Of a stretch of DNA of 64,000 bases, positions 7,847 to 29,714 are shown one piece after another; position 1 is the stretch's first letter, and each line of letters begins with the position of its first letter. The translations under genes were made by a program, and so were the position numbers. The DNA comes from Marinicella litoralis (GTDB taxonomy: Bacteria > Pseudomonadota > Gammaproteobacteria > Xanthomonadales > Marinicellaceae). The notes beneath the pieces were generated by a model. That model did not search any database, was not told the DNA's origin, and worked only from the letters and a program-made list of their open reading frames with translations. The stretch lies in assembly GCF_002591915.1 (NCBI RefSeq), contig NZ_NIHB01000004.1, positions 80,459 to 144,458 of the forward strand. Reading direction: 5' to 3'.

Positions 7847-7997
7847 AAATAACTTCCTGAATAATTGGCCAAAACTTGATAGTAACAGAAAATAAAAGCT
7901 GTTTTGAATCATTTAATCAACAGCGGTTAGTAAAAAGTTGTCTGTCTTTAAATGAATTAAGGGACTTGTTTTCACCGGTCACATGTATTTAAAAATA

Positions 7998-8008
7998 GGG
8001 GTTTTCCC
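7998..8008. promoter_or_regulatory. GGGG-TTTT-CCC inverted repeat upstream of the first S8 protease
   Basis: The element GGGGTTTTCCC lies 98 bases before the protease start codon and just upstream of a TATTATAAA stretch that could serve as a -10. A near-identical element precedes the paralogous protease (17324-17336). It is a candidate activator or repressor site; the regulator is unproven. Confidence 0.45.
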
Positions 8009-8105
8009 TGGCTTATTATAAAGGCCTTTCCTGATGGTCATTAGTAATGCAAAACTCGAAGATAGGGTACTCAATTTATTTCAATCTTTAGAGCGGAGAA
8101 AACCA

Positions 8106-10574
8106 ATGAAAAATTATCTACTTAAAAGTGCTGTGATGGCATCTTTGGCTGGGTATACTTTAAATGCAAATGCTGCAGTTATCGGTACTCAATTAGAAGC
8201 AAGGTTAAATACCTTGGGGGCTTTAGAAAACACCATGGTAGTGGTTACATATAACCAGTTAGACTCAGTTGATTCTAACCAAGTACAAAGTTTAATGAAC
8301 TTGGGTATTACTGAAGGTGTTCAGTTCCAATCTTTGCCAAGTATTGGCGTGTTGGCAAACCCATCGCAGATTAATGAAATTGCGGCCATGAGTGAAGTGA
8401 AATCCGTTTTCTTAAACAGAGAGCTGGAATACTTTAATGATGAGTCAAGAAAAGTAACCAGTGTTGACGAAATCCAAAATGATGAGTTTTACCAAGAAAA
8501 TGGCATTAGATTTACTGGTGAAGGTGTTACCGTCATCGTTAATGATTCAGGCATAGATGCCACTTTGGATGATTTGGCATTTGGCGATAAAGTGGTTGAA
8601 AATGTACAAGGCATTACCCATGCCAGTGTGCTGTCATTAACACCGTTTCCTGGTATGTGGATAGAAGGTCAGTTGAACAGTGATTTGAATGTGGGTCATG
8701 GAACTCATTGTGCTGGAACAGTGGGTGGTACAGGCGCTCATTCGGATGGTAAATACGCAGGTGTTGCAACCGGAGCGGATCTGATTGGCTATGGTTCAGG
8801 TGCGGGTTTATCAATTTTAGATGCTTTGGGCGGTTATGATTATGCCATCACCCATATTTGGGATTTTAATTCACCGATTCGTGTGATGAGTAATTCATGG
8901 GGTTCAAGTGGTCAATATGAGCCAGACGGTCCCATTTCTGTGGCCTCATACAAAGCCTATAAATTAGGCATGATTTCTGTGTTTGCCGCTGGCAATGATG
9001 GCCCAGGTGAAGACACCCATAACCCCTACGCTCAAATTCCATGGGGAATGTCTGTTGGCGCAGGTACCAAACATGGTACCTTGGTTGATTTTTCTTCTCG
9101 TGGCAAACGATTTGAGTCGGGTGATTTCAGTATGCCTGATGGTACTGAATGGACTTACCACAATGAAGTGAGTATTGTGGCTCCAGGGCAAGACATCATA
9201 TCTACCAGGGCAAAAACCAACATAGCTTCCAATGGTGGCGATGCGGACATTGATGCGATTGAAACTGAATACCTGCCTTATTACACCATGATATCTGGAA
9301 CTTCAATGGCCACGCCTCATGTGGCAGGCATCATTGCATTGATGTTGGAAGCCAACCCTGATTTATCCCCCTTAGAAGTTAAAACCATCTTGCAAGAAAC
9401 AGCGACCAACATTCCTGGTTATGAAAAATGGGAAGTGGGCGGCGGTTATGTGAATGCCAAAGCTGCTGTTGCTGGTGCATTGGATTACAACACCGACTAT
9501 GCAAAAACAGTTAATAACCTCAATGAGTTTAATGCCAATGCTTTGATTATTCCACCTAATGGATCTGAGGCCTTTGAAGTATTTTATTCTCCGGTGGGTG
9601 AACCCGAAGTTTATGAATTTGAAGTCGATGAAGATGCGGCCTTTGTTTCTGCCTCAGCTGAACCTTTAGCCAACACTGTAAAGTTGAAATTAGAAGCACC
9701 GGATGGAACCGAATATTTGGGCAACTTAACCTTGCCGGTATTATCATGGTCAACTAAAGTTTCAGCGCCAGCGCAAGTGGGTACTTGGAAACTGTCGGTT
9801 TTTGGTTTAACTTCATTGTCAGGTGTTCAAGCAGATCCAACAGGCGTAACCAATGGACCAGGTGTGCCAGAATTTATTTCCGGTGAAATTGAAATATTTG
9901 GTAACGGTGGTTATGAAGGATTAAATGACATTGCAGGACACCCTGCCGAAAATGCCATTACATTTGCTGTGGCAAATAGATTGGTCGATAGTCTGAATGA
10001 TTCAAACTTCTATCCAGATAGAAAGTTAAAAAGAAAACATTTGGCAAAATACTTGGTCATGGGTGCAGCAGTTCGTCAACAAAGAGATTTGCTGAACAGT
10101 GCCATGACAGTATACAGCGATGTCAGCTCAACGGATGCGGCATTCATCAATGCAGTGACTCAAACGGGTTCAGCACTTAAAGATCCAGAGCATCAACAAG
10201 CACCTATTATGTTGGCTAAAACCGGCGCATTTAAACCCAATGATAAAGTTTCAAGAGAAGAGTTGGGTTACTCTATGGTGCAATCCTTAGGACTGGAGTC
10301 AGACGCTGCGTTGTTTGCTGGCACCGATAGCTTGAAGGTTGAATACAATGGTCAGGAAGTCCCTGTCAGAGACAGTGATCTGGTATCAGCCGAATATTTG
10401 GCTCATATGCAAGTGGCTTTGAACCTGAGTTTGTTGAATGTGCAATTTGCCATTGAACAAGGGCCTTATGACTTACAGCCTACTTTGGTCGCTTATTTGA
10501 AACCAAATGAAATGATAAAAAGAGGAGAGTATGCTGTAGCCATAGGCAGAATGTTTGAAAATTATTACAGATAA
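8106..10574 (+). CDS. Secreted S8 subtilisin-like protease with SLH-like C-terminus
   Basis: An 822-residue exported serine protease. A signal peptide (residues 1-22, ending NANA-A) is followed by an inhibitor-like propeptide (about 24-110). The peptidase S8 domain has catalytic Asp 147 (VNDSGID), His 198 (GHGTHCAG) and Ser 400 (SGTSMATPHVAG). A beta-rich region (about 465-620) precedes a C-terminal region with SLH-like repeats (YSDVSSTDAAFINAV, FKPNDKVSREELGYSMV). The start at 8106 has a GGAG Shine-Dalgarno sequence seven bases upstream and yields a clean signal peptide; an in-frame start at 8034 would bury it. A strong terminator follows. A full-length paralogue lies at 17398-19860. Type II secretion is a plausible exit route, but no signal for it can be read. 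Confidence 0.9.
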   Translation: MKNYLLKSAVMASLAGYTLNANAAVIGTQLEARLNTLGALENTMVVVTYNQLDSVDSNQVQSLMNLGITEGVQFQSLPSIGVLANPSQINEIAAMSEVKSVFLNRELEYFNDESRKVTSVDEIQNDEFYQENGIRFTGEGVTVIVNDSGIDATLDDLAFGDKVVENVQGITHASVLSLTPFPGMWIEGQLNSDLNVGHGTHCAGTVGGTGAHSDGKYAGVATGADLIGYGSGAGLSILDALGGYDYAITHIWDFNSPIRVMSNSWGSSGQYEPDGPISVASYKAYKLGMISVFAAGNDGPGEDTHNPYAQIPWGMSVGAGTKHGTLVDFSSRGKRFESGDFSMPDGTEWTYHNEVSIVAPGQDIISTRAKTNIASNGGDADIDAIETEYLPYYTMISGTSMATPHVAGIIALMLEANPDLSPLEVKTILQETATNIPGYEKWEVGGGYVNAKAAVAGALDYNTDYAKTVNNLNEFNANALIIPPNGSEAFEVFYSPVGEPEVYEFEVDEDAAFVSASAEPLANTVKLKLEAPDGTEYLGNLTLPVLSWSTKVSAPAQVGTWKLSVFGLTSLSGVQADPTGVTNGPGVPEFISGEIEIFGNGGYEGLNDIAGHPAENAITFAVANRLVDSLNDSNFYPDRKLKRKHLAKYLVMGAAVRQQRDLLNSAMTVYSDVSSTDAAFINAVTQTGSALKDPEHQQAPIMLAKTGAFKPNDKVSREELGYSMVQSLGLESDAALFAGTDSLKVEYNGQEVPVRDSDLVSAEYLAHMQVALNLSLLNVQFAIEQGPYDLQPTLVAYLKPNEMIKRGEYAVAIGRMFENYYR

Positions 10575-10594
10575 TTGCATGTAAAAGATGAATG

Positions 10595-10618
10595 GGGCTG
10601 TATTAATACAGCCCTTTT
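10595..10618 (+). terminator. Rho-independent terminator
   Basis: The perfect palindrome GGGCTGTATTAATACAGCCC is followed by TTTT. It lies 21 bases after the protease stop codon, so that gene is probably monocistronic. Confidence 0.88.
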
Positions 10619-10710
10619 CTTGTTCATTGAGCAATTCAATTGAAACCAAAACATAAGTCAGTTAATATGGATAGTAACTACTATAACTTTGACCAGATAA
10701 GAGGTGCGTA

Positions 10711-11532
10711 ATGATGAGATATAAGTTTGGATTGTTTGTGTCTTTAACCCTGTTGTTGCTGCAAGTTAATGCCCAGTCTATATCAACCAACATTAATGGT
10801 AATTCAGCAGAGTTGCTTGTTTCATTGCCAGGTGGCATTGCTGCTGATTTTACAATAACTTTTGAGAATGTGGTTGGGCTTACAGAAGAAAACTTGGGTC
10901 TTGCTGTTGACCTGATTGACTTGAATGACATCAATGTACTCAATCGCTTGCCATCAGGTATTTTAACCTCCATTCCTGTGGCATTCCCTATGATGATCAC
11001 TGTTGAACCTGCTTATGACAGTGGGCTCAGCTTTGAAGGATTGGTGACCATTGATATTCACACCCACAACTTAGCATATACAGAGAATACTCCGCTGCGC
11101 TTATTCAAAGCACCATTGGGTGGTACATTCAGAGACATCACCGATACCACTTCATCAGGCAGTTATCGCGCCAGAAGTACTACAGGTACTTTTTCACAGT
11201 TTATCATCGTGGCAGATAACCGAGCAGCGAGTCAAATCAGTACTGAAAAACTGAATCAGCTGCAAAGTGAATTGGCTGGCTGGCAAAATGTTATTGAGCC
11301 TGCTGTTTTTCTACAGTTAAACAATAAATCAATGGACATAGCTGCGGACATTAACCAGGCAAATTATGCAGCTGCGGATATAAAAATCACCGAGTTTTCA
11401 TACTTGGTTTCGCAATATGCTGGCACAGGCATTCCTAACGTTTGGCGTGCGAGCAAAGACATTGATAATGTGGCAGGTGAGCTGATAGCTCATGCAAAAA
11501 CTTTGAAATTCAGTGTTCGACTGATTGATTAA
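10711..11532 (+). CDS. Exported protein of unknown function
   Basis: Not recognised. The 273 residues begin with a signal peptide (MMRYKFGLFVSLTLLLLQVNA, cut before QS). The remainder is a beta-rich region of about 140 residues with alternating hydrophobic strands (AELLVSLPG, TITFENVVG), then a Ser/Thr-rich link and a helical C-terminal region (TEKLNQLQSELAGWQNVI). There is one possible Shine-Dalgarno sequence (AGAGGTG) before the ATG. The gene lies between the first protease and the FHA/kinase operon, only 18 bases before the FHA gene, so it may be the first gene of that operon. That makes it a candidate periplasmic or surface partner of the signalling system; this is inference from position only. 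Confidence 0.7.
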   Translation: MMRYKFGLFVSLTLLLLQVNAQSISTNINGNSAELLVSLPGGIAADFTITFENVVGLTEENLGLAVDLIDLNDINVLNRLPSGILTSIPVAFPMMITVEPAYDSGLSFEGLVTIDIHTHNLAYTENTPLRLFKAPLGGTFRDITDTTSSGSYRARSTTGTFSQFIIVADNRAASQISTEKLNQLQSELAGWQNVIEPAVFLQLNNKSMDIAADINQANYAAADIKITEFSYLVSQYAGTGIPNVWRASKDIDNVAGELIAHAKTLKFSVRLID

Positions 11533-11550
11533 GGGGGACAGAAGAGTCAC

Positions 11551-12459
11551 ATGCCCGCAATCATTACAGCTTGTTTCAAAGACAGACCTGCAGTAGAAGC
11601 AGTTCTGAAAGAACGAGGGCAGTACAGTATTGGACGAGATAACCAGTGTGATGTGATACTCCATCATCCCACCGTTTCTAAAGTACACGCTTTACTCAGT
11701 CATGATGATAATCCGTGGAGATTAAGAGATTCTTCCAGCAGTAACGGCATTCAAATCAACGGTGACTTTATTTCAAATTTTGAATTGCTTGGCAATGAGC
11801 TGATCACAATTGGTGAGATTGAGTGTTTGTTTGAAGTACAAAGTGATGTCCAAAGGTTAGCGATTGAAAACCACAATCAGTGGCGTTTGTCACAAGCAAA
11901 ATCTTTCAGCTCATCGCAAAATCACAGTGACTGTCTGGCTCAGGGTATGGAGCAAAGGTTGTTTTCTATGTTGTCATTAACTGGACTACAAAGAGGCATG
12001 ATTTTATTGGGCCAGTCAATGGATGAATTGGTGGTCTGCTCAGCCAAAGGTATTCGCTTTCAGGATTTTACTGTTGAAGAGTTTGAAGGCAGTATTGGGG
12101 CCATTCAAGCATGCTTTAATTCTGGTGAAAACGTCATAGCGATGGACACCAGGAAAGATACTATGTTTTGTAAAAGAAGCAGTATACAGCAGAAAAATAT
12201 AGCTGCTTTGTGTTGTTTGCCTATCATTGAGAAAACCAATCAACGGATTATTGGGTTGATATATTTAGACAGTAAAATGTCGTCAAAGATATTGTCTGAA
12301 TTGGACTTGGAAATACTTAACACCATAAATGAACAAGTGTTACTCAATCTTCAAGTCATTAACCTAGAAAGTCAATTGAGTGATTTGGTAATGCAAATTT
12401 CACAAAATCATTCGGAATCTTCAGTCATCAATAAACCCATCTTATCTTTGGTTAGGTGA
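11551..12459 (+). CDS. FHA-GAF domain signalling protein
   Basis: A 302-residue cytosolic protein. The N-terminal FHA domain (about 25-98) carries the phosphothreonine-binding signature YSIGRDNQCDVIL...HPTVSKVHALL...SSSNGIQING. A GAF-like sensory domain (about 135-275) follows, with the segment ALCCLPIIEKTNQRIIGLIYLDSK. FHA domains bind phosphothreonine peptides, so the protein is a likely substrate reader or partner of the Ser/Thr kinase encoded 15 bases downstream. The GAF domain might bind a small ligand, which is not predictable. The protein has no transmembrane segment and no output domain, so it probably acts as an adaptor. Confidence 0.85.
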   Translation: MPAIITACFKDRPAVEAVLKERGQYSIGRDNQCDVILHHPTVSKVHALLSHDDNPWRLRDSSSSNGIQINGDFISNFELLGNELITIGEIECLFEVQSDVQRLAIENHNQWRLSQAKSFSSSQNHSDCLAQGMEQRLFSMLSLTGLQRGMILLGQSMDELVVCSAKGIRFQDFTVEEFEGSIGAIQACFNSGENVIAMDTRKDTMFCKRSSIQQKNIAALCCLPIIEKTNQRIIGLIYLDSKMSSKILSELDLEILNTINEQVLLNLQVINLESQLSDLVMQISQNHSESSVINKPILSLVR

Positions 12460-12474
12460 TCCCAGAGAATATAA

Positions 12475-15400
12475 ATGGCCGCCGACTCTGATAAATCAAT
12501 CAATATTGGCGACGGTCAAACTCAAATAATTGAACCCACAGGCAAAATGCTAAAAATAGGCACCACCTTAATTGGACGGTTTCTGATTGAAGCACAAATT
12601 GGCGAAGGTGGGTTTGGGCAAGTGTATAAAGCCACAGATTTGCATTTGAATGCTTCAGTGGCTATCAAATTATTACACAACAAGTTTATCAGTGATGAAG
12701 CTGCACTTAATCAATTTAAAAATGAAATACTGATTCTACGACAATTGTCACATCAAAATATCTTACGTGTGTATGAGTATTATCAAGAGTCGTCTCATTG
12801 CTTTATTACCATGGACTGGATTGACGGTGAGCTGTTGTCTGAAAAAATCGAGCAAGGCTCCATTTCTTTTACACAAGTTAAACAATACAGTGAACAAATA
12901 ATGGATGCACTGGATTATGCCCAGATGCATGAAGTATGTCACCGTGACTTGAAGCCAGAAAATATACTGATAGATGGACAAGGGCGATTGTACATACTCG
13001 ACTTTGGTATGGCTGTTTTTACTGAGTCCTCTGCAGTCAAATCATTTGGTGGGACGCCCTTTTATTGTGCGCCTGAGTACTTGCAGGACAATGTGATTAA
13101 TAACAGCACAGACTTTTATTCAGTGGGCCTTATTATTTACGAAATGTGTTGTCGAAAACTGCCGTACAAAGCTTCAGATATGGCAACTTTGATTGTTGAA
13201 AAGCAACAGCCAATTAAAAAATTCCCGTGCACTGATAAATCATTAAAGGCTTTCAAGCAGGTGGTTTTACAATTAACCACACCATTGGCAAGACCAAGAA
13301 CAGAGCTGTTGGACAGTACTGAAATAAGCCATGCCTGTTTATTGCCTGAAAATGGTCATAAATCCAAAACAACTTTTTGGATACTCATTCTGGCAACGGT
13401 CTTGATGTTCTGCGCTACATTGATTTGGATTGTATTCAAAGGGGATGCTGTGGATGAAAACTTGCTGCCTGACAGCAGCAGTTATCAGTCTATCATTTTG
13501 TTGCCCTTTTCTGGGTCTGACTCAGGTGATGGACAATTCTCCTGGGTGAACAGAGTGGCACCTGAAATTTTAAGTAACCAATTGAGTTTACAACCTACGA
13601 TACGGTTGGTTCCAGTTGATAGAATTAACGAAGTCATTCAATCGCTTGGCTTCAAACAACCTTTGAATCAGAAACAGCAGCAAGTGTTAAGCGAATTACT
13701 TAAAGCTGAATATTTGGTCAAAGGTAAGTACGCTGGGGCGGGTCAAAATCAAATATTACTCAATGTTGATTTGGTTCATATTGTTGGGTCTCAACTGTTA
13801 AATCAAAACCTGATTGATGCTGTCATCTCGGATGCTGAAGTATATGAAAGCTTGGTTGGCACATCTGAAAAGTTACTTGAAATGTTTGAGATTAAGGAGA
13901 ACCAAGAATCTGAATATGTATTAACCCAAAAAGATTTGAATTTACTGGCAAAAATTAAAGTACTCAGAGCTGAGGGCAACAATGAAGCCATAGAGTCTGC
14001 ATTATTAGCGTTGCTCTCAAACCAATCGGGTTATGTGCCAAGTTGGGATCATTTGTATCAATTCTACCTAGATAATGGACAGTTTAACAAAGCCGAAGAG
14101 GTTTTGACTCAGGTGATAACAATTACCCAGCCTGGACAATACTACCATAATTTATTCAGAGCAAGGCTCAACGATTTAAACGGAAATCCAGAAGAAGCCG
14201 AAAAAATTTATCAATCTGTCTTGTTACAAAAGTCGCGAGATGAAAGCTTGCTGTTTGAAGTAGCGCAATTTTATATCAGAAATGAAGACTATGAATCAGC
14301 ACAAAATAAATTGAAGCAATTACTTGAGTTGGCACCAAATCATGTGGCTGGATTATATGAGTTGTCTAAAATATCCATTCGAATAGGTGACATTCAAAAA
14401 GCCATAGATGATTATTTGGTACGGTCTTTGGTGAGTGCCAATAAACTCAATGATGCCAGATATAAGGGATTGATTTACAATGCTTTTGGAGTTGCTTATC
14501 AACGCTTGGGTGAAATTGATTTGGCCATTGATAACTACAACAATGGTTTGGAAATCAGATTAAAGATTGATGATGTTAAAGGCGCAGTAACTAGTATGTC
14601 AAATTTAGCGGCCCTGTATGCTGTCAAAGGGGAATATGCCAAAGCTGAAGCCTTGCTGCAACAGGGAGTGGCCATGTTGGATGATTCGGGCAATGACCTT
14701 GATACGTCTATCATGATAAATAAGCTCGGTGTACTGGCAGAGGAGCAAGGGCTGTATAAAGAGGCTTTGACACATTACCAAAACGCCTTAAATTTAAGGC
14801 TTAACTTGGATGAAAAATGGTTGCAAGCTGAGAGTATGAATAATGTTGGATTTATATTTTTTTTAATGACGCAATTAGATCATGCAGTGATTTATTGGCA
14901 GCAAGCGGAAAAAATATATACAGAAATTGGTGATATGGTTGGTCTGCTACAAGTGAATCAAAATATGGCCCAATTACAATTAAGGAAAGGTTCCCTTAAC
15001 GAAGCATTTCAGTCTTTTGAAAGTTCATTGCATGAAGCGCTTAACTTAAAAGTCAAAGAAGAACAATTTGTTGCGAAGGCCAATCTGGCAAAAATTTCAT
15101 TTTTACAAGGTAATTTTAGACACGCCATCAGTGAATTGCTTACTGTATTAGAAGACTTAAAATCAAGAGATGATGTGCGTGGACAAATTGAATATGGTCT
15201 TTTGCTCTCAGAATGGTATTTTATTATAGGTGACATTGAACAAGCTGAAAACACGCTGCTTAAGCTCGAAACATTTACTGCCTCCTCAATGAGCTTGGTA
15301 CAACAGCAAAAATTTAAATTGTTACTGTTGTCATTAACCGGCGAGTTGAATACTTTGGATCTTGATGAATTATTAAGTCATCATGGATTACCTGAATATG

Positions 15401-15807
15401 AAGTCATTCAAAATTACTTATTTATAACCCGTCAATTTTTGTCAATTGATATTGATAAGGCCAAACAACTGCTGACTTATATCAGCACCATCAATGTGAA
15501 GCTATATAAACTCGCTTACTTGGAACTTTTAGAGCTGAAAGTGTTGTATTCTGGATTGGTTAAAGATCGGAAAAATTATTCAACTTATTTGGATGAGGCA
15601 ACTAAGCTATCGAAAGACTTTCCAATCTATTGGAGAAATTACCATCTTGAGGTGCTTAAAAAAATGCAAAATTCTGGCAGTAAGTTGACAGATGACCAAC
15701 GACAACAAATTTTGTTGCATGGCTGGGAAGTTCTCATTAAGGAAATACCTGTATCGGCAAGGCAACAATTTACTCAACAACAGCAAGGAATTTATCTGGG
15801 ATTGTAA
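12475..15807 (+). CDS. Membrane Ser/Thr protein kinase with FlgO-like and TPR domains
   Basis: An 1110-residue, probably inner-membrane, kinase. The eukaryotic-like kinase domain (about 35-285) has the glycine loop IGEGGFGQV (42-50), the ATP lysine 65 (VAIK), the catalytic loop HRDLKPEN (His 156, Asp 158) and DFG. One transmembrane helix spans about 300-322. Next comes a region (about 335-465) reminiscent of FlgO/TolB-N modules (IILLPFSGS, EYLVKGKYAG), and then a long helical array with tetratricopeptide repeats (about 535-1000; for example AFGVAYQRLGEIDLAIDNYNNGLEI). With one helix after the kinase, the FlgO-like/TPR part would be periplasmic and could sense a protein ligand. The stop overlaps the histidine kinase start (TAATG), so translation is coupled. 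Confidence 0.88.
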   Translation: MAADSDKSINIGDGQTQIIEPTGKMLKIGTTLIGRFLIEAQIGEGGFGQVYKATDLHLNASVAIKLLHNKFISDEAALNQFKNEILILRQLSHQNILRVYEYYQESSHCFITMDWIDGELLSEKIEQGSISFTQVKQYSEQIMDALDYAQMHEVCHRDLKPENILIDGQGRLYILDFGMAVFTESSAVKSFGGTPFYCAPEYLQDNVINNSTDFYSVGLIIYEMCCRKLPYKASDMATLIVEKQQPIKKFPCTDKSLKAFKQVVLQLTTPLARPRTELLDSTEISHACLLPENGHKSKTTFWILILATVLMFCATLIWIVFKGDAVDENLLPDSSSYQSIILLPFSGSDSGDGQFSWVNRVAPEILSNQLSLQPTIRLVPVDRINEVIQSLGFKQPLNQKQQQVLSELLKAEYLVKGKYAGAGQNQILLNVDLVHIVGSQLLNQNLIDAVISDAEVYESLVGTSEKLLEMFEIKENQESEYVLTQKDLNLLAKIKVLRAEGNNEAIESALLALLSNQSGYVPSWDHLYQFYLDNGQFNKAEEVLTQVITITQPGQYYHNLFRARLNDLNGNPEEAEKIYQSVLLQKSRDESLLFEVAQFYIRNEDYESAQNKLKQLLELAPNHVAGLYELSKISIRIGDIQKAIDDYLVRSLVSANKLNDARYKGLIYNAFGVAYQRLGEIDLAIDNYNNGLEIRLKIDDVKGAVTSMSNLAALYAVKGEYAKAEALLQQGVAMLDDSGNDLDTSIMINKLGVLAEEQGLYKEALTHYQNALNLRLNLDEKWLQAESMNNVGFIFFLMTQLDHAVIYWQQAEKIYTEIGDMVGLLQVNQNMAQLQLRKGSLNEAFQSFESSLHEALNLKVKEEQFVAKANLAKISFLQGNFRHAISELLTVLEDLKSRDDVRGQIEYGLLLSEWYFIIGDIEQAENTLLKLETFTASSMSLVQQQKFKLLLLSLTGELNTLDLDELLSHHGLPEYEVIQNYLFITRQFLSIDIDKAKQLLTYISTINVKLYKLAYLELLELKVLYSGLVKDRKNYSTYLDEATKLSKDFPIYWRNYHLEVLKKMQNSGSKLTDDQRQQILLHGWEVLIKEIPVSARQQFTQQQQGIYLGL

Positions 15808-16523
15808 TGAAAGAGGATGCCAATAAGTTATTAAAAGAAGTTGATTCAATCAGCCAGATTCAAAAGAAAATTGTACATGATTTGGTTAGCAATCAACAAC
15901 AAATGAAGCAATTAGCCAAACGAATTTTAAAAGTTCAAGAAGACGAGAGAAAGCATATCGCACAAGAGTTACATGACAGTGTAGGGCAATTATTAACTGC
16001 GGTTATTAATCAGCTTGAGTCCTGTAAACAAGATATAAATAACTCAGGATTGGGTCCAGTTTTAGACTTAACCAGACAGGCTTTACTTGAAACCAGAGAG
16101 TTGTCGCGATTAATGCGGCCAAGAATATTGGATGATTTAGGGCTGGTGCCTGCGCTCTGTTGGTTAACTCGAATTATGTCGGAAAAAAATGGTGTTCAGA
16201 TCAGTTTGGATCATGAAATCAAAGCTCAATTAGATCCTGAAATTCAAACCTTGGTTTTCAGGGTGGTGCAAGAATCTTTAACTAACGCATTGAAGCATGC
16301 CCAAGCCAAGAGCATACAAATTATTGTTAAATCTTCAGCCAACGTGCTGGTTCTAAAAATAATTGATGATGGAATAGGTATGGACAATCAAGACCAAGAC
16401 GGTTTTGGTATGGCCACAATTCAGGACCGGGTCTTTTCCTTTGATGGTCAACTGATCATCACCTCTGCCTTGGGTCAGGGAACAGAAATCAAAGTTATCT
16501 TGACTTCTTTGGGTCATAATTAA
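15807..16523 (+). CDS. Cytosolic NarX-type histidine kinase without a sensor domain
   Basis: The 238-residue protein contains only a short coiled-coil lead (about 1-40), a HisKA_3 dimerisation/phosphoacceptor domain (VQEDERKHIAQELHDSVGQ, His 56) and a HATPase_c domain with the N-box SLTNALKHAQ and the G-box DDGIGM / GFGMATIQDR. No transmembrane segment or sensory module precedes it. The input probably comes from another protein, most plausibly the Ser/Thr kinase whose stop codon it overlaps. Its cognate partner should be the NarL-type regulator that starts after one untranslated base. The coupled order kinase - histidine kinase - regulator argues for one signalling chain. Confidence 0.9.
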   Translation: MKEDANKLLKEVDSISQIQKKIVHDLVSNQQQMKQLAKRILKVQEDERKHIAQELHDSVGQLLTAVINQLESCKQDINNSGLGPVLDLTRQALLETRELSRLMRPRILDDLGLVPALCWLTRIMSEKNGVQISLDHEIKAQLDPEIQTLVFRVVQESLTNALKHAQAKSIQIIVKSSANVLVLKIIDDGIGMDNQDQDGFGMATIQDRVFSFDGQLIITSALGQGTEIKVILTSLGHN

Positions 16524-16524
16524 A

Positions 16525-17163
16525 ATGATTACAGTTTATTTAGCAGATGATCACAACATAGTTAGACAAGGTTTAGTGAGTCTTCTGAAGTCTTATGCAA
16601 ATTGTCAAATTGTTGGTGAAGCCGCTGATGGATTGAAGGCGCTTAAAGACATCGTTGAATTAAAACCTGATGTGGCCATAGTGGACATCACGATGCCCAA
16701 GATGAACGGAATGGAGCTGGTAAAACAAGTTCATACCAAATGCCCTGAAACAAAATTATTGGTACTTACCATGCATGAGGAGGAGGAGTATGTTATCCAC
16801 ATGGTTAAAGCAGGCGCGTCTGGCTATTTACTTAAAGACAGTGCAGGGGAAGAGTTGATTGACGCAGTCAAAACATTGGCACAAGGAAAATCATATTTCA
16901 GTCAATATGCTGCTCAGGTTTTGGCATCGCAATACAGCAACCCTCAACAAGCCTGGGATGATCCTTACAAGGGATTGACCAAAAGAGAAAGGCAAATTTT
17001 TCATTTAGTCATTGATGGAATTACCACCAAAAAAATTGCTGAAATGTTATATATCAGTGCCAAAACTGTGGAAAACCATCGCGGTAAAATTTTAGACAAA
17101 TTGAAGGTGTCTAATACCGCTGAATTGGTAAAGTACGCAGCCAAAAACAACCTGTTGATTTAG
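16525..17163 (+). CDS. NarL/FixJ-type response regulator
   Basis: The 212-residue protein has a receiver domain (1-120) with acidic pocket residues in YLADDHNIVRQGL, phosphoacceptor Asp 54 (AIVDITMPKMNG) and Lys in LLKDS. The LuxR-type helix-turn-helix output domain (about 148-210) shows TKRERQIFHLVIDGITTKKIAEML and SAKTVENHRGKIL. It is the DNA-binding output of the operon and is partnered with the preceding histidine kinase. Likely targets are the two flanking protease genes, both of which carry a GGGG-TTTT-CCC(C) palindrome upstream. NarL-family dimers read inverted repeats, so the proposal is reasonable but untested. Confidence 0.92.
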   Translation: MITVYLADDHNIVRQGLVSLLKSYANCQIVGEAADGLKALKDIVELKPDVAIVDITMPKMNGMELVKQVHTKCPETKLLVLTMHEEEEYVIHMVKAGASGYLLKDSAGEELIDAVKTLAQGKSYFSQYAAQVLASQYSNPQQAWDDPYKGLTKRERQIFHLVIDGITTKKIAEMLYISAKTVENHRGKILDKLKVSNTAELVKYAAKNNLLI

Positions 17164-17323
17164 TTTGGCTGTGTGCCATTTATGACAAGACAGCAACAAT
17201 GATATCAGACCGATGATTAAGCCCTAGGCAAAATAATTTAATCCATGTTTAATATCGATATGGCTGTATATTAAATGAATTCCAGACAAGACCTTTGAAA
17301 TAAGTGATTTTTAGTTTTTTTAT

Positions 17324-17336
17324 GGGGGTTTTCCCC
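17324..17336. promoter_or_regulatory. GGGGG-TTTT-CCCC inverted repeat upstream of the second S8 protease
   Basis: GGGGGTTTTCCCC lies 61 bases before the ATG of the second protease and matches the element at 7998-8008. The rest of 17164-17397 shows no other gene and no terminator after the response regulator. Confidence 0.45.
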
Positions 17337-17397
17337 AATATTTATTTGCATTGAAATCTCCTAATCTATCGTTGTACTTTTAATTTTGGAGACAATA

Positions 17398-19860
17398 ATG
17401 GTGAAAAACAGCTGTAAATCTGGGTATATGAAGTTATTGATTGGAGGTTTTCTCTTGTCAACTTTGTCAATCCATGCAAAATCATTTGATCCGGTTTTAG
17501 CCTCGCTATTAAGTGAAGTGACCGAAAATGAATTGATAGAAGTTATTGTGACTTATGAGAACCAAGGTCCTGTAACATTGAGTGATTTAAATACATTGGA
17601 TGATATTGGCATCAATACCGGTGTAGTGATGGAGAATTTGCCAATAGTAGGTGTCTTGGCCACTCACAATCAAATCAATGACATCTATTCACAAGCCAAT
17701 GTTCGATCAATCTGGCACAATCAACAATTAAGTTTAGAAAATGATGGTTCGACTGAAATCACTGGAGTGGATCGTTTGCGCAATGACCCAAATATGCGTA
17801 ACATGGGTATGCCATTTTCAGGCAGGGGAATCGGGGTAGTGATCAATGATTCTGGTGTTGACGGTACCCACAATGACATTAAATTTCCGAACCACACTGT
17901 GCAGAATGTGTTGGCGCAAACTAACTTGAGATCTTTCTCAGATTTAGCGCCTATCACCTACCAGGAAGACATTCCCAATACAGACATTGCCGGTGGTCAT
18001 GGTTCGCATGTTGCAGGCATCATTGGCGGAAATGGCGCAATGTCTAGCGGTCGTTATGCAGGGGTGGCACCTGGTGCCAAATTAATTGGTTATGGTTCTG
18101 GAGCTGGTTTATTTATACTGGACACCATAGGTGGATTTGATTATACCCTCACTCACCAATTTGATTACAACATCCGAGTCATTTCAAATTCATTTGGTAG
18201 TACCAGTGACACAGGAACAGACTTCAATCCAGATCATCCCACCAATGTAGCGACCAAAGCCTTGGCTGACAGGGGTGTCATTGTCGTATTTTCAGCTGGG
18301 AATTCAGGCAGCGGAGAAGCGACCATTACCGGTAACTTCAAAAAAGCACCTTGGGTTGTCACAGTGGCTGCAGGAGATAAAAATGGTGAACTGGCAGACT
18401 TTAGCTCGAGAGGAGTAAAAGGTCATGGTGGTAATGTTGTGGTAAGTGGTGAAATTTTTGAATGGGTTGATCGACCAACTGTTACGGCGCCGGGTGTTGA
18501 TGTCATATCAGTCAGAGATTCATTATCAAGTTTGGGCGCATTGAGCTTTCAAGATGATGCAGATCAGTTAGAACCTGCCCATTTACCTTATTACACCATA
18601 AGCAGTGGTACATCCATGTCAGCTCCACATGTGTCTGGTATTGTGGCTTTGATGTTAGAAGCTGATCCCACCTTAAATTGGCGAGCAGTGAAACAAATTT
18701 TACAAGATACTGCCACAAATATGCCTGGCCGAGAAGCTTGGGAAGCTGGTGCGGGTTATGTGAATGCGTATGCAGCGGTGCAATCGGTTCTAGACCGACA
18801 AAGAAATTTCGGAGAAACGGTTAAAATTAACCGCAACTTTAATGCCATGGCTTTGACATCAGTTGCCGGTGAATTTGCGGTTGATGTACCATTCAGTCCA
18901 GTGGGTGAGAATGAGGGCATCACTTTTGAAGTGAGCGAAGACATTTCATTGATATTTGTGCGGGCCAACGTAAGTGATAATACGGTTGCATTGTCTTTGT
19001 ACAGCCCATCAGGCAAACGCTATGGTTCAAGTATAGCCTTACCAGTCATAGGGCAAAACATTGCTGTGACTGCGCCAGCAGAGCCTGGTACATGGACTTT
19101 AAAAGCCGGTGGCATTGGTGGCGTTTCTGGGGTTGATGTTGACCCTACAGGACAAACCAACGGCTATGCAGCTCCAGGAGATGTAGCAGCGTATGTGAAA
19201 TTCATCAGAACAGATGGGTTTTCAGGAATTTCCGACGTAAGCTTTAATCATCCTGCCAGAAGCTTTGTAGAATTTGTTGTGTCTAAGCAGTTGATGGATG
19301 CTACCTTATATGGTTTTGAACCAGATGCTTTGCTTTCAAGAGGAGAATTGGCTGATTATTTGACTTTAACCGTCGGTGTTCGCCAATCAAATTCAGCTGC
19401 TGAAGGCGTTTATTCAGATGTGCCAAGTTCAATAGTTGCTGCAGTTAATTCAGTGACTGAATTAGGTGCATCATTATCAGACCGAGCTCAGACTCAAGAT
19501 TCTTTGATGATGCCAGTTAATAATGACTTGTTTAACCCATTTGGAAAAGTTAACAAGCAGGAATTGGCTTATTCACTTATTCAGGGTAAAGGACTGGAGT
19601 CTGAGGCCAGAAATTTTGATAGTGATATCGTCGTTGTTTATAATGGTGAATCAATCAGCATTGAAGATCAAGATTTAATTGCTGAAGAGTATAAAGGTTA
19701 TGTTCAATTTGCAATTTCCATGGGTATTTTGCCTGTTGAGTTTACCTTGGAACAAGGTCAGTTTGATTTCAATCCAGTTATTAAGGCATATTTTAAGCCA
19801 AATAAAACAATGACCAGAGCAGATTTTGCTGCTGCAGCAACTCGATACTATATTAATTAA
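17398..19860 (+). CDS. Secreted S8 subtilisin-like protease, paralogue 2
   Basis: The 820-residue protein is closely similar in layout to the protease at 8106-10574. A signal peptide of about 31 residues ends SIHAKS. An inhibitor-like propeptide follows, with the same VTY-N / LPxxGVLAxxxQIN pattern. The S8 domain has Asp 151 (INDSGVD), His 201 (GGHGSHVAG) and Ser 406 (SGTSMSAPHVSG). The C-terminal half ends with SLH-like repeats (YSDVPSSIVAAVNSV, FNPFGKVNKQELAYSLI). The ATG at 17398 was chosen over a TTG at 17386 because GGAG lies six bases upstream. The two proteases are too diverged in DNA to be a recent duplication. A terminator follows at once. Confidence 0.9.
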   Translation: MVKNSCKSGYMKLLIGGFLLSTLSIHAKSFDPVLASLLSEVTENELIEVIVTYENQGPVTLSDLNTLDDIGINTGVVMENLPIVGVLATHNQINDIYSQANVRSIWHNQQLSLENDGSTEITGVDRLRNDPNMRNMGMPFSGRGIGVVINDSGVDGTHNDIKFPNHTVQNVLAQTNLRSFSDLAPITYQEDIPNTDIAGGHGSHVAGIIGGNGAMSSGRYAGVAPGAKLIGYGSGAGLFILDTIGGFDYTLTHQFDYNIRVISNSFGSTSDTGTDFNPDHPTNVATKALADRGVIVVFSAGNSGSGEATITGNFKKAPWVVTVAAGDKNGELADFSSRGVKGHGGNVVVSGEIFEWVDRPTVTAPGVDVISVRDSLSSLGALSFQDDADQLEPAHLPYYTISSGTSMSAPHVSGIVALMLEADPTLNWRAVKQILQDTATNMPGREAWEAGAGYVNAYAAVQSVLDRQRNFGETVKINRNFNAMALTSVAGEFAVDVPFSPVGENEGITFEVSEDISLIFVRANVSDNTVALSLYSPSGKRYGSSIALPVIGQNIAVTAPAEPGTWTLKAGGIGGVSGVDVDPTGQTNGYAAPGDVAAYVKFIRTDGFSGISDVSFNHPARSFVEFVVSKQLMDATLYGFEPDALLSRGELADYLTLTVGVRQSNSAAEGVYSDVPSSIVAAVNSVTELGASLSDRAQTQDSLMMPVNNDLFNPFGKVNKQELAYSLIQGKGLESEARNFDSDIVVVYNGESISIEDQDLIAEEYKGYVQFAISMGILPVEFTLEQGQFDFNPVIKAYFKPNKTMTRADFAAAATRYYIN

Positions 19861-19876
19861 AGCAGTGCGATTTTAA

Positions 19877-19913
19877 CAACAGCAATTGTGTTTAAATTGC
19901 TGTTGTTTTTTTT
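19877..19913 (+). terminator. Rho-independent terminator
   Basis: An 11-bp perfect stem (CAACAGCAATT / AATTGCTGTTG) with a 7-base loop is followed by eight T. It lies 16 bases after the second protease stop. Confidence 0.92.
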
Positions 19914-20070
19914 GTCAGTAATTTAAGGCAAAAATTGTAAATAGCCGCCTATCCCTTAATGATCCATTGTTATTAGCCTAAGTTTAATTAATTAAACAAG
20001 TGTTTGTAGCTAAAATACAATTGAAATTATTCTTTTATAAGTACAGAATGATGTATTTAATAAGGATTGA

Positions 20071-20664
20071 ATGATGAAATTTATCGCAATGGTCCTGATG
20101 TTTTTTGGTTTTAGTCAAAGTGAGCAATCCTTAGCTGAGGATTTGTCAATCAGATTGGTGGCTGGTGAATTTGTTAGGGGGCTGTACCAGGATGAAAATA
20201 TTGAATTATTTGTTTTGAACCTACCAGCCAATGCCATTTTGCCTGATCATCAAACCGGTCCAAGGATAGTTATTCTAATGTCTGACTTATCAGGTAAGCG
20301 ATTGGCGGACGGCAGTGAATTCAGCGTTGAGCAAGATCAGGTTTTGTATCTACAGAATACTTATTCGCAAGGCTTTCAAAACTCAACGACACCAGCTACA
20401 TACTTGGTTTTGGACTTAAAAGGAGTGGTTTTGGATAATAAATTATCACATCCATGCGAACAACCATCCATGCTACAATTATTTGCTCAAGATGATTTTA
20501 CTGTTTGTAAAAATGTAACGAAGCAGGAAATTGATTTCCATGTGACAACTATGGTGTATCGCGATGACCATCATCAATTCTTTCTGCAGCACAGATCAAA
20601 CAAAATGACAATCATACCAGGAGATGTTTTGATAGAGTTTCATGGTCAATTGACAGTTGAGTAA
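20071..20664 (+). CDS. Exported cupin-like protein, function unknown
   Basis: The 197-residue protein has an N-terminal signal peptide (MMKFIAMVLMFFGFSQSEQSLA). The mature part resembles a cupin barrel, with LPANAILPDHQTGPRIVILMS, then DGSEFSVEQDQVLYLQ and NSTTPATYLVLDLKG. These parallel the two cupin motifs (H.H....G / G..H...N), but most metal-binding histidines are missing, so catalysis is doubtful. The C-terminal third repeats a similar strand pattern (HQFFLQHRSNKMTIIPGDVLIEF). An AAGGA Shine-Dalgarno sequence precedes the tandem ATG. It stands alone between terminators, downstream of the second protease. The family was not recognised with certainty. Confidence 0.6.
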   Translation: MMKFIAMVLMFFGFSQSEQSLAEDLSIRLVAGEFVRGLYQDENIELFVLNLPANAILPDHQTGPRIVILMSDLSGKRLADGSEFSVEQDQVLYLQNTYSQGFQNSTTPATYLVLDLKGVVLDNKLSHPCEQPSMLQLFAQDDFTVCKNVTKQEIDFHVTTMVYRDDHHQFFLQHRSNKMTIIPGDVLIEFHGQLTVE

Positions 20665-25863: not shown

Positions 25864-26244
25864 ATGAATTTAGAAGGTTTAAAAGTGATGGTGATTGATG
25901 ACAGTAAAACCATTCGCAGAACCGCTGAAACTTTATTAAAAAAAGAAGGTTGTGAAGTTATCACTGTAGACAATGGTTATGAAGCGTTGTCTCAGATATC
26001 AGATCTAGAACCCAACATTATTTTTGTTGATATCATGATGCCTCGACTCGATGGGTATAAAACCTGCGCTTTAATAAAAATGAACAGTGAACACAAATCC
26101 ACTCCTGTAATCATGCTCTCAAGTAAAGATGGCTTATTTGATAAAGCCAAAGGTAGGGTGGTTGGTGCGGAAGAGTATTTGACCAAACCATTTACTAAAG
26201 AGGAGCTGATTGAAGCCATTGAAAAACACGTTAAAAGGGATTGA
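25864..26244 (+). CDS. pilG: Type IV pilus response regulator PilG
   Basis: A 126-residue single-domain receiver. The acidic pair is in VMVIDDSKTIRR, the phosphoacceptor is Asp 56 (FVDIMMPRLDG), the Thr/Ser is in IMLSSKDG and the Lys in YLTKPFTKEEL. These match PilG, the CheY-like output of the Pil-Chp pathway that promotes pilus extension. It opens the operon pilG-pilI-pilJ-pilK-chpA-chpB-chpC, and its stop codon is two bases from the pilI start. The usual neighbour pilH, a second CheY-like protein, is absent between pilG and pilI. The start has a GGAG Shine-Dalgarno sequence. Confidence 0.93.
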   Translation: MNLEGLKVMVIDDSKTIRRTAETLLKKEGCEVITVDNGYEALSQISDLEPNIIFVDIMMPRLDGYKTCALIKMNSEHKSTPVIMLSSKDGLFDKAKGRVVGAEEYLTKPFTKEELIEAIEKHVKRD

Positions 26245-26246
26245 GA

Positions 26247-26792
26247 ATGAGTAAACACATAATCAAACCATTTGAGTTGCTCCTTGAATATGAGAAAAGA
26301 AGTGTTTCTCATGCTTTAGGTAGTTCAACTGATGAAGGGGAGTTGGGTGATTGGTCAGGAATCGGTTTTAAAATTGGTGATATGTATTTAGTGACACAGG
26401 TTGATGACATCAATGAGGTGGTCATTTTACCTGAGTTGGTCAGAATTCCAGGCATCGATAATTGGGTTTTGGGTTTGGTGAATATCAGAAGCAATTTGAT
26501 TCCAGCTATTGACTTAAGGGCTTATTTAACCGGTGAATCTTCAAAGCTCACCAAACACACAAGGATGTTGGTAATCAATCAACCCGGTGGTCATGCCGGC
26601 TTGGTGGTTGACGAAGTATTTGGTCAGCGACATTTTAAACACAGTGAGGGTATAGACATCGAAGGTGATGATGCGTCACGTGTTTATTCTTATTGTGATA
26701 AATTTTTCAGCCATGATGATGTGAATTGGAATGTGTTTGTGATGGACCAATTGGTTCAGGACACCAATTTCCAAAATGCATCAATTAAATAA
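26247..26792 (+). CDS. pilI: CheW-like adaptor PilI
   Basis: The 181-residue CheW-domain protein has the core GFKIGDMYLVTQVDDINEVVILPELVRIPGIDNWVLGLVNIRSNLIPAIDLRAYL. It couples the PilJ receptor to the ChpA kinase. The ATG at 26247 follows a purine-rich AAAGGGA sequence at about ten bases; the TTG at 26241 overlaps pilG and is less likely. The order between pilG and pilJ is as in other Pil-Chp operons apart from the missing pilH. Confidence 0.93.
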   Translation: MSKHIIKPFELLLEYEKRSVSHALGSSTDEGELGDWSGIGFKIGDMYLVTQVDDINEVVILPELVRIPGIDNWVLGLVNIRSNLIPAIDLRAYLTGESSKLTKHTRMLVINQPGGHAGLVVDEVFGQRHFKHSEGIDIEGDDASRVYSYCDKFFSHDDVNWNVFVMDQLVQDTNFQNASIK

Positions 26793-26810
26793 CAACAGAG
26801 GTAGAAGTAT

Positions 26811-28829
26811 ATGAGCAGTTCAGCTGTAGATATGGACCAAAGAACCCGTACGTTGCCTTTATGGCAATTGATGGTATTGGTTATTTTGGTGTTGTCGTTC
26901 TTTGGTCACTCCTATTGGTTAGCCACCATCGAACAAGACAGAACGTCACATTTGTCAGAAACTGACAAAGTTCAGATTAAGGCTCAACAATTGGCTCAGT
27001 ATGCCAAACAAGCGTCGTCGGGCGATATTGACGCGTTTGAAGAATTGATTACTGATCGAAGAATTATCGATGACACGATTAAGTCGTTAAAAAATGGTAA
27101 TTCAAATTACCCGGCACTGCCATCAGATGTGAATCCCAGATTGGGTTCATTGGCAGATCGTTGGGAAAAAATGAACAACGATGCATTAACGATTATTGAA
27201 CAACGTGATCGAATTGAAGAATTAAGTGATATTTCTGATAAATTTGCTTCAGAAATTCCAATCTTACAAGCCAGTTCTGATGCTGTTGTAAAAAGATTGG
27301 TTGCGATCAGAGAAGACCGTGGTCTTATTTACTTGGCATCACAACAACTGGTATTGGCTGACAGAATGTTGCGTCGCATGAGTGAAATATTAAAAGGGGG
27401 CGCTGCTTCTATCCAAGCCAGTGACAGTTTAGACAGGGATGCCAGAAAATTCAATGAAGTGATGACCGGCATGTTTAATGGCAATGACACCATTAAAGCC
27501 GTTACTGATGACCAAGCAGTTGAATCTTTGGGCCGAGTTTATGCTGCTTTTGACAGTGTCCAAGCAGACATTGGTACAGTCAGGGGTGCCATGGAATTAT
27601 TCGATGCACAGATTGCAGCGGCTGACATTGAAGTTGATGTTGATTCATTTGTGGAAGATGCCGAACAATTAAGAAACCAAATTTCAGAGCGTACTCAATT
27701 GGTACCATCAGAAAGAATGGGTTGGGTCATTGCAGGCCTGTCATTTTTATGGTTGTTATGGATTTTCAGAACTTTATCTAAAAATGACCGTGTAAGGGCT
27801 GCCGTTGCACAGGATCAAAATGAAAGAAATCAACAAGCGATTCTTCGGTTGCTTGATGAAATGGGCTCATTGGCTGATGGTGATTTGACCGTGAATGCAA
27901 CTGTATCGGAAGACATTACCGGCGCGATTGCCGACTCTGTTAACTTCGCGATTGAAGCCTTGAGGTCATTGGTGAAAACCATTAATGACGCTTCAGTGGG
28001 TGTGGCATCTGCGGCTCAAGAAGCACAGGCCACGGCGATGCATTTGGCTGAAGCCTCAGAGCATCAAGCCACACAGATCACCAACGCATCGGCAGCCATT
28101 AATGAAATTGCAGTTTCTATTGATGAAGTATCGAAGAATTCATTGGAGTCAGCCGATGTAGCACAACGATCGGTATTGATTGCGCATAATGGTGCAGAGG
28201 TTGTGCGAGACACCATTAAAGGCATGAACAACATTCGAACACAGATTCAAGACACCTCTAAGAGGATTAAACGCTTGGGTGAAAGTTCACAAGAAATTGG
28301 AAACATCGTTGAATTGATTAATGACATTGCCGAACAAACGAACATTTTGGCATTGAATGCTGCGATTCAAGCGGCGTCTTCTGGCGAGTCTGGTCGAGGT
28401 TTTGCGGTTGTTGCCGATGAGGTACAACAGTTGGCAGAACGTGCATCCAGCGCGACACGTCAGATTGAGGGCATTGTAAAAACCATTCAAACGGATACCA
28501 ATGAGGCCGTACGTTCAATGGAGCAAACGACATCAGAAGTGGTGGGTGGAGCTCGAAAAGCCGAGGATGCGGGTGAAGCCTTGACTGAAATTGAAACAGT
28601 ATCGAACGATTTGGCTGAATTGATTCAAAACATATCCGAGGCGGCCAGACAACAATCGGTAGCTGCCACCAATATTTCTGGAACCATGAACGTGATTCAA
28701 GAGATTACCACCCAGACATCAGCCGGTACACAACAAACAGCAGAGTCGATTGGTAACTTGGTGGAGTTGGCGACAGAATTACGTAAATCAGTAGAAGACT
28801 TTAAGTTGCCAGATGACGAGTTCTTCTGA
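26811..28829 (+). CDS. pilJ: Pilus chemoreceptor PilJ (methyl-accepting protein)
   Basis: The 672-residue inner-membrane receptor has a first transmembrane helix at about 16-37 (LWQLMVLVILVLSFFGHSYW), a helical periplasmic domain (about 40-300) and a second helix at about 304-322. A HAMP-like/linker region and a long coiled-coil signalling domain follow. The hairpin tip reads DIAEQTNILALNAAIQAASSGESGRGFAVVADEVQQLAERAS. The Gln in AAIQAA, where classical receptors have Glu, is a PilJ-type trait as recalled. It senses surface contact through pili in Pseudomonas. Methylation is by PilK and demethylation by ChpB, both encoded downstream. Confidence 0.94.
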   Translation: MSSSAVDMDQRTRTLPLWQLMVLVILVLSFFGHSYWLATIEQDRTSHLSETDKVQIKAQQLAQYAKQASSGDIDAFEELITDRRIIDDTIKSLKNGNSNYPALPSDVNPRLGSLADRWEKMNNDALTIIEQRDRIEELSDISDKFASEIPILQASSDAVVKRLVAIREDRGLIYLASQQLVLADRMLRRMSEILKGGAASIQASDSLDRDARKFNEVMTGMFNGNDTIKAVTDDQAVESLGRVYAAFDSVQADIGTVRGAMELFDAQIAAADIEVDVDSFVEDAEQLRNQISERTQLVPSERMGWVIAGLSFLWLLWIFRTLSKNDRVRAAVAQDQNERNQQAILRLLDEMGSLADGDLTVNATVSEDITGAIADSVNFAIEALRSLVKTINDASVGVASAAQEAQATAMHLAEASEHQATQITNASAAINEIAVSIDEVSKNSLESADVAQRSVLIAHNGAEVVRDTIKGMNNIRTQIQDTSKRIKRLGESSQEIGNIVELINDIAEQTNILALNAAIQAASSGESGRGFAVVADEVQQLAERASSATRQIEGIVKTIQTDTNEAVRSMEQTTSEVVGGARKAEDAGEALTEIETVSNDLAELIQNISEAARQQSVAATNISGTMNVIQEITTQTSAGTQQTAESIGNLVELATELRKSVEDFKLPDDEFF

Positions 28830-28852
28830 AAATAAGCGAATTAAGCTAAACA

Positions 28853-29713: not shown

Positions 29714-29714
29714 T

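Follow-up and report, generated by a model that had tools for sequence, protein, structure and literature searches.

A conserved five-gene cassette with a proposed Ser/Thr-to-histidine kinase relay and a promoter box at secreted S8 proteases

Bacterial signalling that joins Ser/Thr phosphorylation to two-component systems is already known, with EspA/PktA5, HstK, DegS and StkP-ComE as examples. EspA of Myxococcus xanthus carries an FHA domain. The DegS/DegU pair has a LuxR-type regulator and controls exoproteases, and the Hanks kinases that act on DegS are encoded unlinked to it. In mycobacteria, the FHA protein GarA docks on its own kinase, PknB; the output of this pair is metabolic, and we know of no two-component partner for it. 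Here, we focus on a locus that recalls parts of all of these. It lies in a 64,000-nucleotide stretch of Marinicella litoralis (hereafter the window; contig NZ_NIHB01000004.1, positions 80,459 to 144,458) and comprises five genes, for a DUF6689 protein, a protein with an FHA and a GAF domain (FHA-GAF), a membrane Ser/Thr kinase (STK), a histidine kinase (HK) and a NarL-type response regulator (RR). We consider it probable that this cassette forms a dedicated transmembrane signalling line, running from STK through FHA-GAF and HK to RR and on to secreted S8 proteases or, elsewhere, to an FG-GAP-repeat protein.

The published systems each share a part of this arrangement. In Myxococcus xanthus, a Ser/Thr kinase reportedly acts within a complex for which interaction with a histidine kinase is considered possible (EspA, PktA5, EspB; PMC4320627), and it is this link between the two kinase types that resembles the cassette. 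However, EspA is a hybrid histidine kinase with MrpC turnover as its output, and the passages on it do not mention DUF6689, a standalone FHA-GAF protein or an adjacent NarL-type regulator (PMC4320627). Cyanobacterial HstK likewise combines both kinase types (PMC1262709), but as one fused protein, whereas the cassette has separate genes and would place FHA-GAF between the kinases in function. DegS of Bacillus subtilis is a histidine kinase of the cytosol whose activity is stimulated by phosphorylation on Ser; it differs in being a target of at least two Hanks kinases in vitro, and no FHA adaptor is named there (PMC3033389). The PknS-EcfK system of Xanthomonas citri, a member of the same order as the window's genome, also has a transmembrane Hanks kinase controlling transcription, although its output is an ECF sigma factor (PMC13147305). 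No ECF sigma gene was found by Pfam beside STK among the eight proteins of 8034-20664.

The initial annotation of the window had described FHA-GAF, STK, HK and RR as four adjacent genes on one strand, and their coordinates, domains and successive gaps of 15, -1 and 1 bases were all reproduced from the open reading frame (ORF) list and Pfam (Table 1). The four genes stood as described, but the unit is one of five, with the DUF6689 gene 18 bases upstream. A terminator-like hairpin separates the upstream protease from the cassette, which is therefore probably a transcript of its own; some 220 bases lie between the end of RR and the start of the downstream protease.

This neighbourhood is conserved, a point on which the initial annotation had made its proposal depend. 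We compared 54 stretches, namely 45 fetched for DUF6689 hits in the order, eight earlier ones and the window, and found the complete cassette in 49 of them, with DUF6689 present by construction in the 45 and the other four genes not so. The five exceptions are G055 (two halves), L117 and L144 (cut short) and L150 (a lone DUF6689 fragment). In all 49 complete loci the genes are five separate ORFs of identical order and strand, with no fusion of the HstK type. Retrieval through FHA-GAF alone led to the same arrangement: among 61 genomes, the window's included, six others have a full-length FHA-GAF relative, with STK adjacent and DUF6689 upstream in 6/6 and all five genes in order, in one case split across two contigs.

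The distribution of the cassette is patchy even within the genus, where 2 of 18 genomes carry it. In searches that score only the best first-look candidates (six per genome for DUF6689 and for FHA-GAF), so that absence is uncertain, PF20396 hits came from 50 of the order's 398 genomes, spread over 27 of 98 genera; a draw of 369 genomes from the class gave three and the 14 control genomes none. FHA-GAF, searched independently, was found in 49 of the 398, of which 48 are DUF6689-positive; the two thus co-occur in 48 genomes and one stands without the other in three, and the odd FHA-GAF genome, G485, encodes a different protein. A named collection, which partly overlaps the genomes of the order set, holds 33 DUF6689 loci, including ones from Lysobacter, Arenimonas, Luteimonas, Pseudoxanthomonas, Xanthomonas, Rhodanobacter, Vulcaniibacterium and Silanimonas. 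All five genes are present in 28; in the other five loci, which are shorter stretches, HK and RR are missing. Across loci, the pairwise identities of one cassette protein correlate with those of another (r 0.71-0.96), as joint inheritance would predict. A tree of 48 cassettes, built on all five proteins and rooted at the midpoint (with L105, L065, L066, L117, L144, L149 and L150 left out) does not follow families. Two genomes have two cassettes each, G644 (L132/L138) and G490 (L133/L139), with an FG-GAP gene at one of each pair.

The proteins retain what their proposed roles would need. STK has the full catalytic residues of a Hanks-type receptor kinase (K65, D158, N163 and D176, intact in 51/51 rows, the window kinase being counted twice) together with a predicted transmembrane helix. 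Its single strongly hydrophobic segment makes it likely that the kinase domain lies on the cytoplasmic side and the TPR part in the periplasm. A hydrophobicity cut-off of 2.0 gave such a segment in only 15 of 50 kinases; the aligned segment was inspected thereafter, and its values across homologues run from 1.03 to 2.80, weak in a few and lowest in L106. STK is not a PASTA receptor kinase by NF033483, with a score of 193 against the cut-off of 450 and a match confined to the kinase domain; the ectodomain is TPR. The FlgO label initially given to this ectodomain was dropped, as Pfam at E<=10 returned nothing relevant for residues 331-492 and 306-542. Conservation of the ectodomain is fair, with most block means between 0.38 and 0.66. 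N-terminal to the kinase domain, the STK tail is variable, the chief exception being T16, usually followed by x-T-G. This T.TG motif is present in 43 of 48 module kinases versus 1 of 14 other kinases, and the lone positive adjoins FHA-GAF and DUF6689 in a cut-short locus (L086). T16 is the predicted docking site for FHA.

FHA-GAF in turn has the GR, SxxH and NG residues of a phosphothreonine-binding FHA protein, and these are held by the family: G28, R29, S43 and H46 in 48/48, N65 in 47/48 and G66 in 46/48. In its AlphaFold2 (AF2) model, with a predicted local distance difference test (pLDDT) score of 91, helices flank the GAF domain, one of them of 41 residues (250-290) on the C-terminal side. 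A fold search returned GarA chains as the top matches of the FHA part and also matched phytochrome photosensory modules, and the GAF domain with its flanking helices, as modelled, recalls the sensor parts of histidine kinases. Model and fold matches together led us to propose FHA-GAF as a detachable sensor subunit of HK. In G485 (L190:7959-9632), a single chain joins FHA-GAF to a C-terminal output domain, so FHA-GAF can serve as an input module; we read this domain as a SpoIIE-type phosphatase. A fusion of FHA-GAF with HK, which would have been Rosetta-stone proof, was sought in the same protein, the order's single weak FHA-GAF outlier, and set aside because the chain ends phosphatase-like and not in a histidine kinase. 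FHA-GAF relatives of 530-540 residues exist in other families, and the window's genome holds another cluster of FHA and Ser/Thr kinase genes (G000:C12:43000-49000).

HK and RR form a HisKA_3/NarL two-component pair, a HisKA_3 and HATPase_c kinase adjoining a REC-GerE regulator, with the phospho-acceptor histidine and aspartate each kept in 48/48. As the initial annotation had it, HK is without a sensor domain: the 238-residue protein shows no transmembrane-like segment and no further Pfam domain. The NCBIfam cut-offs for MctS and MctR were missed by both proteins (138.7 against 700 for HK, 195.4 against 300 for RR). The DUF6689 protein begins, judged by eye, with a signal-peptide-like N-terminus and would be secreted or periplasmic. 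Its AF2 model (pLDDT 93) has no confident fold match in the PDB; the best, to ankyrin ZU5 domains at E 5e-3, was not used to assign a function. No paper on DUF6689 or the five-gene set was found within the open-licence PMC literature, which is no proof of absence.

The cassette keeps company with one family of S8 proteases, in which D148, H199 and S401, presumably the catalytic triad, are invariant in 15/15 sequences. The initial annotation had suggested looking for such co-occurrence in relatives, and a member lies within 500 bases of DUF6689 or RR in 30 of the 49 complete loci, often divergent from DUF6689 or else 3' of RR; the window and G405, a member of another order of the class, have one on either side. 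By the S8 profile A5 (E<=1e-100), 35 of 398 genomes are positive, 32 of them with DUF6689; the three without are G549, G662 and G592 (65% complete). Pfam finds SLH in both window copies, and the downstream one has a syntenic partial copy in G015, 68% identical. Short S8 proteases also occur beside the cassette in two genera (L112, L113, L116, L120, L123-L126), with frames of about 480-500 residues that match only the first ~457 of 811 profile positions.

What appears to tie cassette and proteases together is a promoter box. A motif search by expectation maximization (EM), trained on one divergent protease/DUF6689 region from each of 11 genera, yielded an 18-bp palindrome, about cTGGGKGaaWtCMCCCAg. 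Its log-likelihood was 98.6 versus a maximum of 31.3 for six shuffled sets, with 25 starts for the shuffled runs against 60 for the real one and with the common ancestry of the promoters uncorrected. Inside the training loci, 14 of the 17 proteases and all 11 cassettes have a box scoring at least 6; outside them, 27 of 28 linked proteases do, as do 28 of 39 cassettes, in a promoter table made without L105, L066, L144, L149 and L150; the boxes of L149 (15.8) and L144 (10.2) thus stand outside the count of 39. Beyond the training genera (families f1 and f9, and G405), 13 of 14 proteases reach this score, the exception being the window's upstream protease, and 10 of the 14 outscore every background window of their own locus, which the window's two do not. 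All five proteases that lie on a different contig from the cassette have a box as well (G046, 15.9; G454, 12.4; G734, 11.1; G635, 11.6; G576, 7.4), the last of them, on contig C169, having its best box about 165 bases 5' of the match. At the two testable proteases of cassette-free genomes the box is absent (scores 0.2 and 0.7); the third such copy, in G592, ends at a contig end and is not part of this count. Protease control had only been guessed at in the initial annotation, which included neither DUF6689 nor the box nor the FG-GAP target. With a palindrome that tracks the cassette in this manner, control of the S8 proteases by RR is well supported by sequence.

Genome-wide, the box is scarce. 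A stricter pattern, TRGGGGWWWWCCCY, has 3 exact matches in the 3.35 Mb genome of the window, at both protease promoters and at one site within an ORF, which we set aside as chance and not as a regulon member. G046 (5.2 Mb) has the stricter box at its cassette promoter and at its distant protease, and nowhere else. Since the window pattern was fitted to the window boxes and the sites in G046 were already known when its pattern was chosen, the information lies in the scarcity of other matches. A looser pattern occurs at three places in G631, one being the shared protease/cassette promoter, and at two in cassette-free G549, neither at the protease. One of the two extra G631 boxes (L199:1501-3015) is directly 5' of an ORF that by eye resembles a secreted tripeptidyl aminopeptidase.

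In loci without a protease, boxes recur 1.3-1.5 kb past RR, where they precede a convergent gene whose product looks secreted and has FG-GAP repeats (Pfam PF14312 in both of those tested). This gene stands directly after RR in 10 loci, with a box of at least 7.2 at 10/10. Nine FG-GAP loci are in the 48-cassette tree, where they form one clade together with two loci that have neither target.

A number of observations weigh against control of these targets by the cassette through the box. The window's own cassette promoter is without it (-2.5), as are those of G015, G405, both f11 loci, four of the five f9 loci and two f12 loci. The window boxes rank 4th and 9th in the 64 kb under a GC-rich matrix, and of the 484 background windows of that locus 13 and 21, respectively, reach their scores; the higher-ranked sites all lie within ORFs, which leaves the window boxes as the two best intergenic sites. 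Many non-training linked proteases come from training genera, and 12 of the 28 have the same box as the cassette promoter, so that the protease and cassette counts overlap. An eleventh FG-GAP copy, in G046, lies 9.9 kb from the cassette and has no box. The association of S8 proteases with the cassette is descriptive, because cassette-linked copies make up most of the A5 profile, no more than the two best candidates in each genome received a score, and relatedness was uncorrected. Lastly, on the side of docking, the window STK has T16 without the usual TxTG; its TQII would presumably suit an FHA ligand of the pT-x-x-I type.

The cassette, the co-occurrence of its genes, their intact catalytic and binding residues, and the box with its distribution are the sequence evidence on which the proposed line is built. 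The TPR part of STK would sense a cue in the periplasm, one that the secreted DUF6689 protein probably presents, and STK would autophosphorylate, the conserved tail threonine T16 included. The FHA domain of FHA-GAF would dock onto phosphorylated T16 and, by way of GAF and the long C-terminal helix, the protein would supply the soluble HK with its sensor, as a detached subunit. For this step from STK to HK, which the initial annotation had already suggested, the retained FHA residues and the tail threonine give indirect support. HK would then phosphorylate RR at Asp54, and an RR dimer would bind the palindrome and switch on the S8 proteases, the FG-GAP-repeat protein in one clade and, in many lineages, the cassette itself. 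Somewhat short of even confidence, we suggest further that HK gave away its sensor to a DUF6689-sensing STK and a phosphothreonine-switched FHA-GAF plug-in, making the cassette a Ser/Thr-His/Asp relay that is inherited as a unit, has its own box and exchanges its effector.

Other readings of the same locus are less convincing. It is unlikely, yet worth weighing, that STK phosphorylates HK or RR directly and that FHA-GAF is a mere scaffold or a separate ligand sensor. HK and RR do lie immediately downstream of STK, and precedents are reported in the Hanks kinases acting on DegS (PMC3033389) and in StkP with ComE (PMC6010298). However, FHA-GAF is as strictly retained as the rest of the cassette, with its phosphothreonine-binding residues kept, and the most conserved tail threonine sits on STK itself. 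We regard it as improbable that FHA-GAF and HK instead sense a cytoplasmic GAF ligand, with STK as a parallel branch that tunes, or is tuned by, the envelope state through FHA-GAF. GAF domains as a family commonly bind small ligands, and FHA-GAF precedes the phosphatase-like domain of the G485 chain, but a merely parallel STK fits poorly with its presence in 49/49 complete cassettes, its intact catalytic residues and its fairly conserved ectodomain. Very improbable is a palindrome bound by another regulator, or acting as an RNA hairpin or terminator, while cassette and proteases just share a neighbourhood: both window boxes do score as terminator-like hairpins, but the sequence is conserved beyond pairing, a single box serves divergent promoters, and the box accompanies other-contig proteases and FG-GAP genes of cassette genomes and is missing at 2/2 testable proteases of cassette-free genomes.

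Table 1. Features of the cassette and its flanks in the window (dot, no strand assigned).
Feature	Position	Strand	Evidence
Proposed regulator box, upstream protease, ATAGGGGTTTTCCCTGGC	7995..8012	.	Matrix score 5.1
S8 protease with SLH, upstream	8034..10574 (likely start 8106)	+	Pfam
Terminator-like hairpin between upstream protease and cassette	10594..10615	+	Consensus match only
DUF6689 protein, 273 aa, cassette gene 1	10711..11532	+	Pfam PF20396 E 1.8e-105
FHA-GAF protein, 302 aa, no transmembrane segment	11551..12459	+	Pfam FHA E 4e-15, GAF E 2e-9
STK, predicted single-pass, 1110 aa: T16 tail, kinase domain, transmembrane 303-321, periplasmic TPR	12475..15807	+	Pfam Pkinase E 1e-55, TPRs
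STK Thr16 codon, proposed FHA docking site	12520..12522	+	T in 49/50
STK transmembrane segment, residues 303-321	13381..13437	+	Hydrophobicity 2.78; best window elsewhere 1.12
HK, soluble HisKA_3 kinase without sensor domain, 238 aa, phospho-acceptor His56	15807..16523	+	HisKA_3 E 2e-11, HATPase_c
RR, NarL-type, 212 aa, phospho-acceptor Asp54	16525..17163	+	Response_reg E 1e-27, GerE E 2e-18
Proposed regulator box, downstream protease, ATGGGGGTTTTCCCCAAT	17322..17339	.	Matrix score 7.7
S8 protease with SLH, downstream	17386..19860 (likely start 17398)	+	Pfam

Further along the window, a secreted-looking ORF of 197 residues without a Pfam match follows the downstream protease (20071-20664). A type IV pilus chemotaxis-like cluster (25864-35885) encodes a CheY-like protein, a PilJ-like MCP and CheR, and includes a 2056-residue Hpt/HATPase/CheW/REC kinase. 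A GspL-like type II secretion protein is encoded at 60164-61336 and may possibly belong to an export route for the proteases.

In the examples of cross-talk known to us, general Ser/Thr kinases act together with separately encoded two-component systems. Here, a single conserved cassette appears to hard-wire both chemistries, and it has a defined box and what is apparently a very small regulon. The cassette gives a context to DUF6689, a family of unknown function, and its coupling step is tractable with a single DNA fragment plus four purified proteins.

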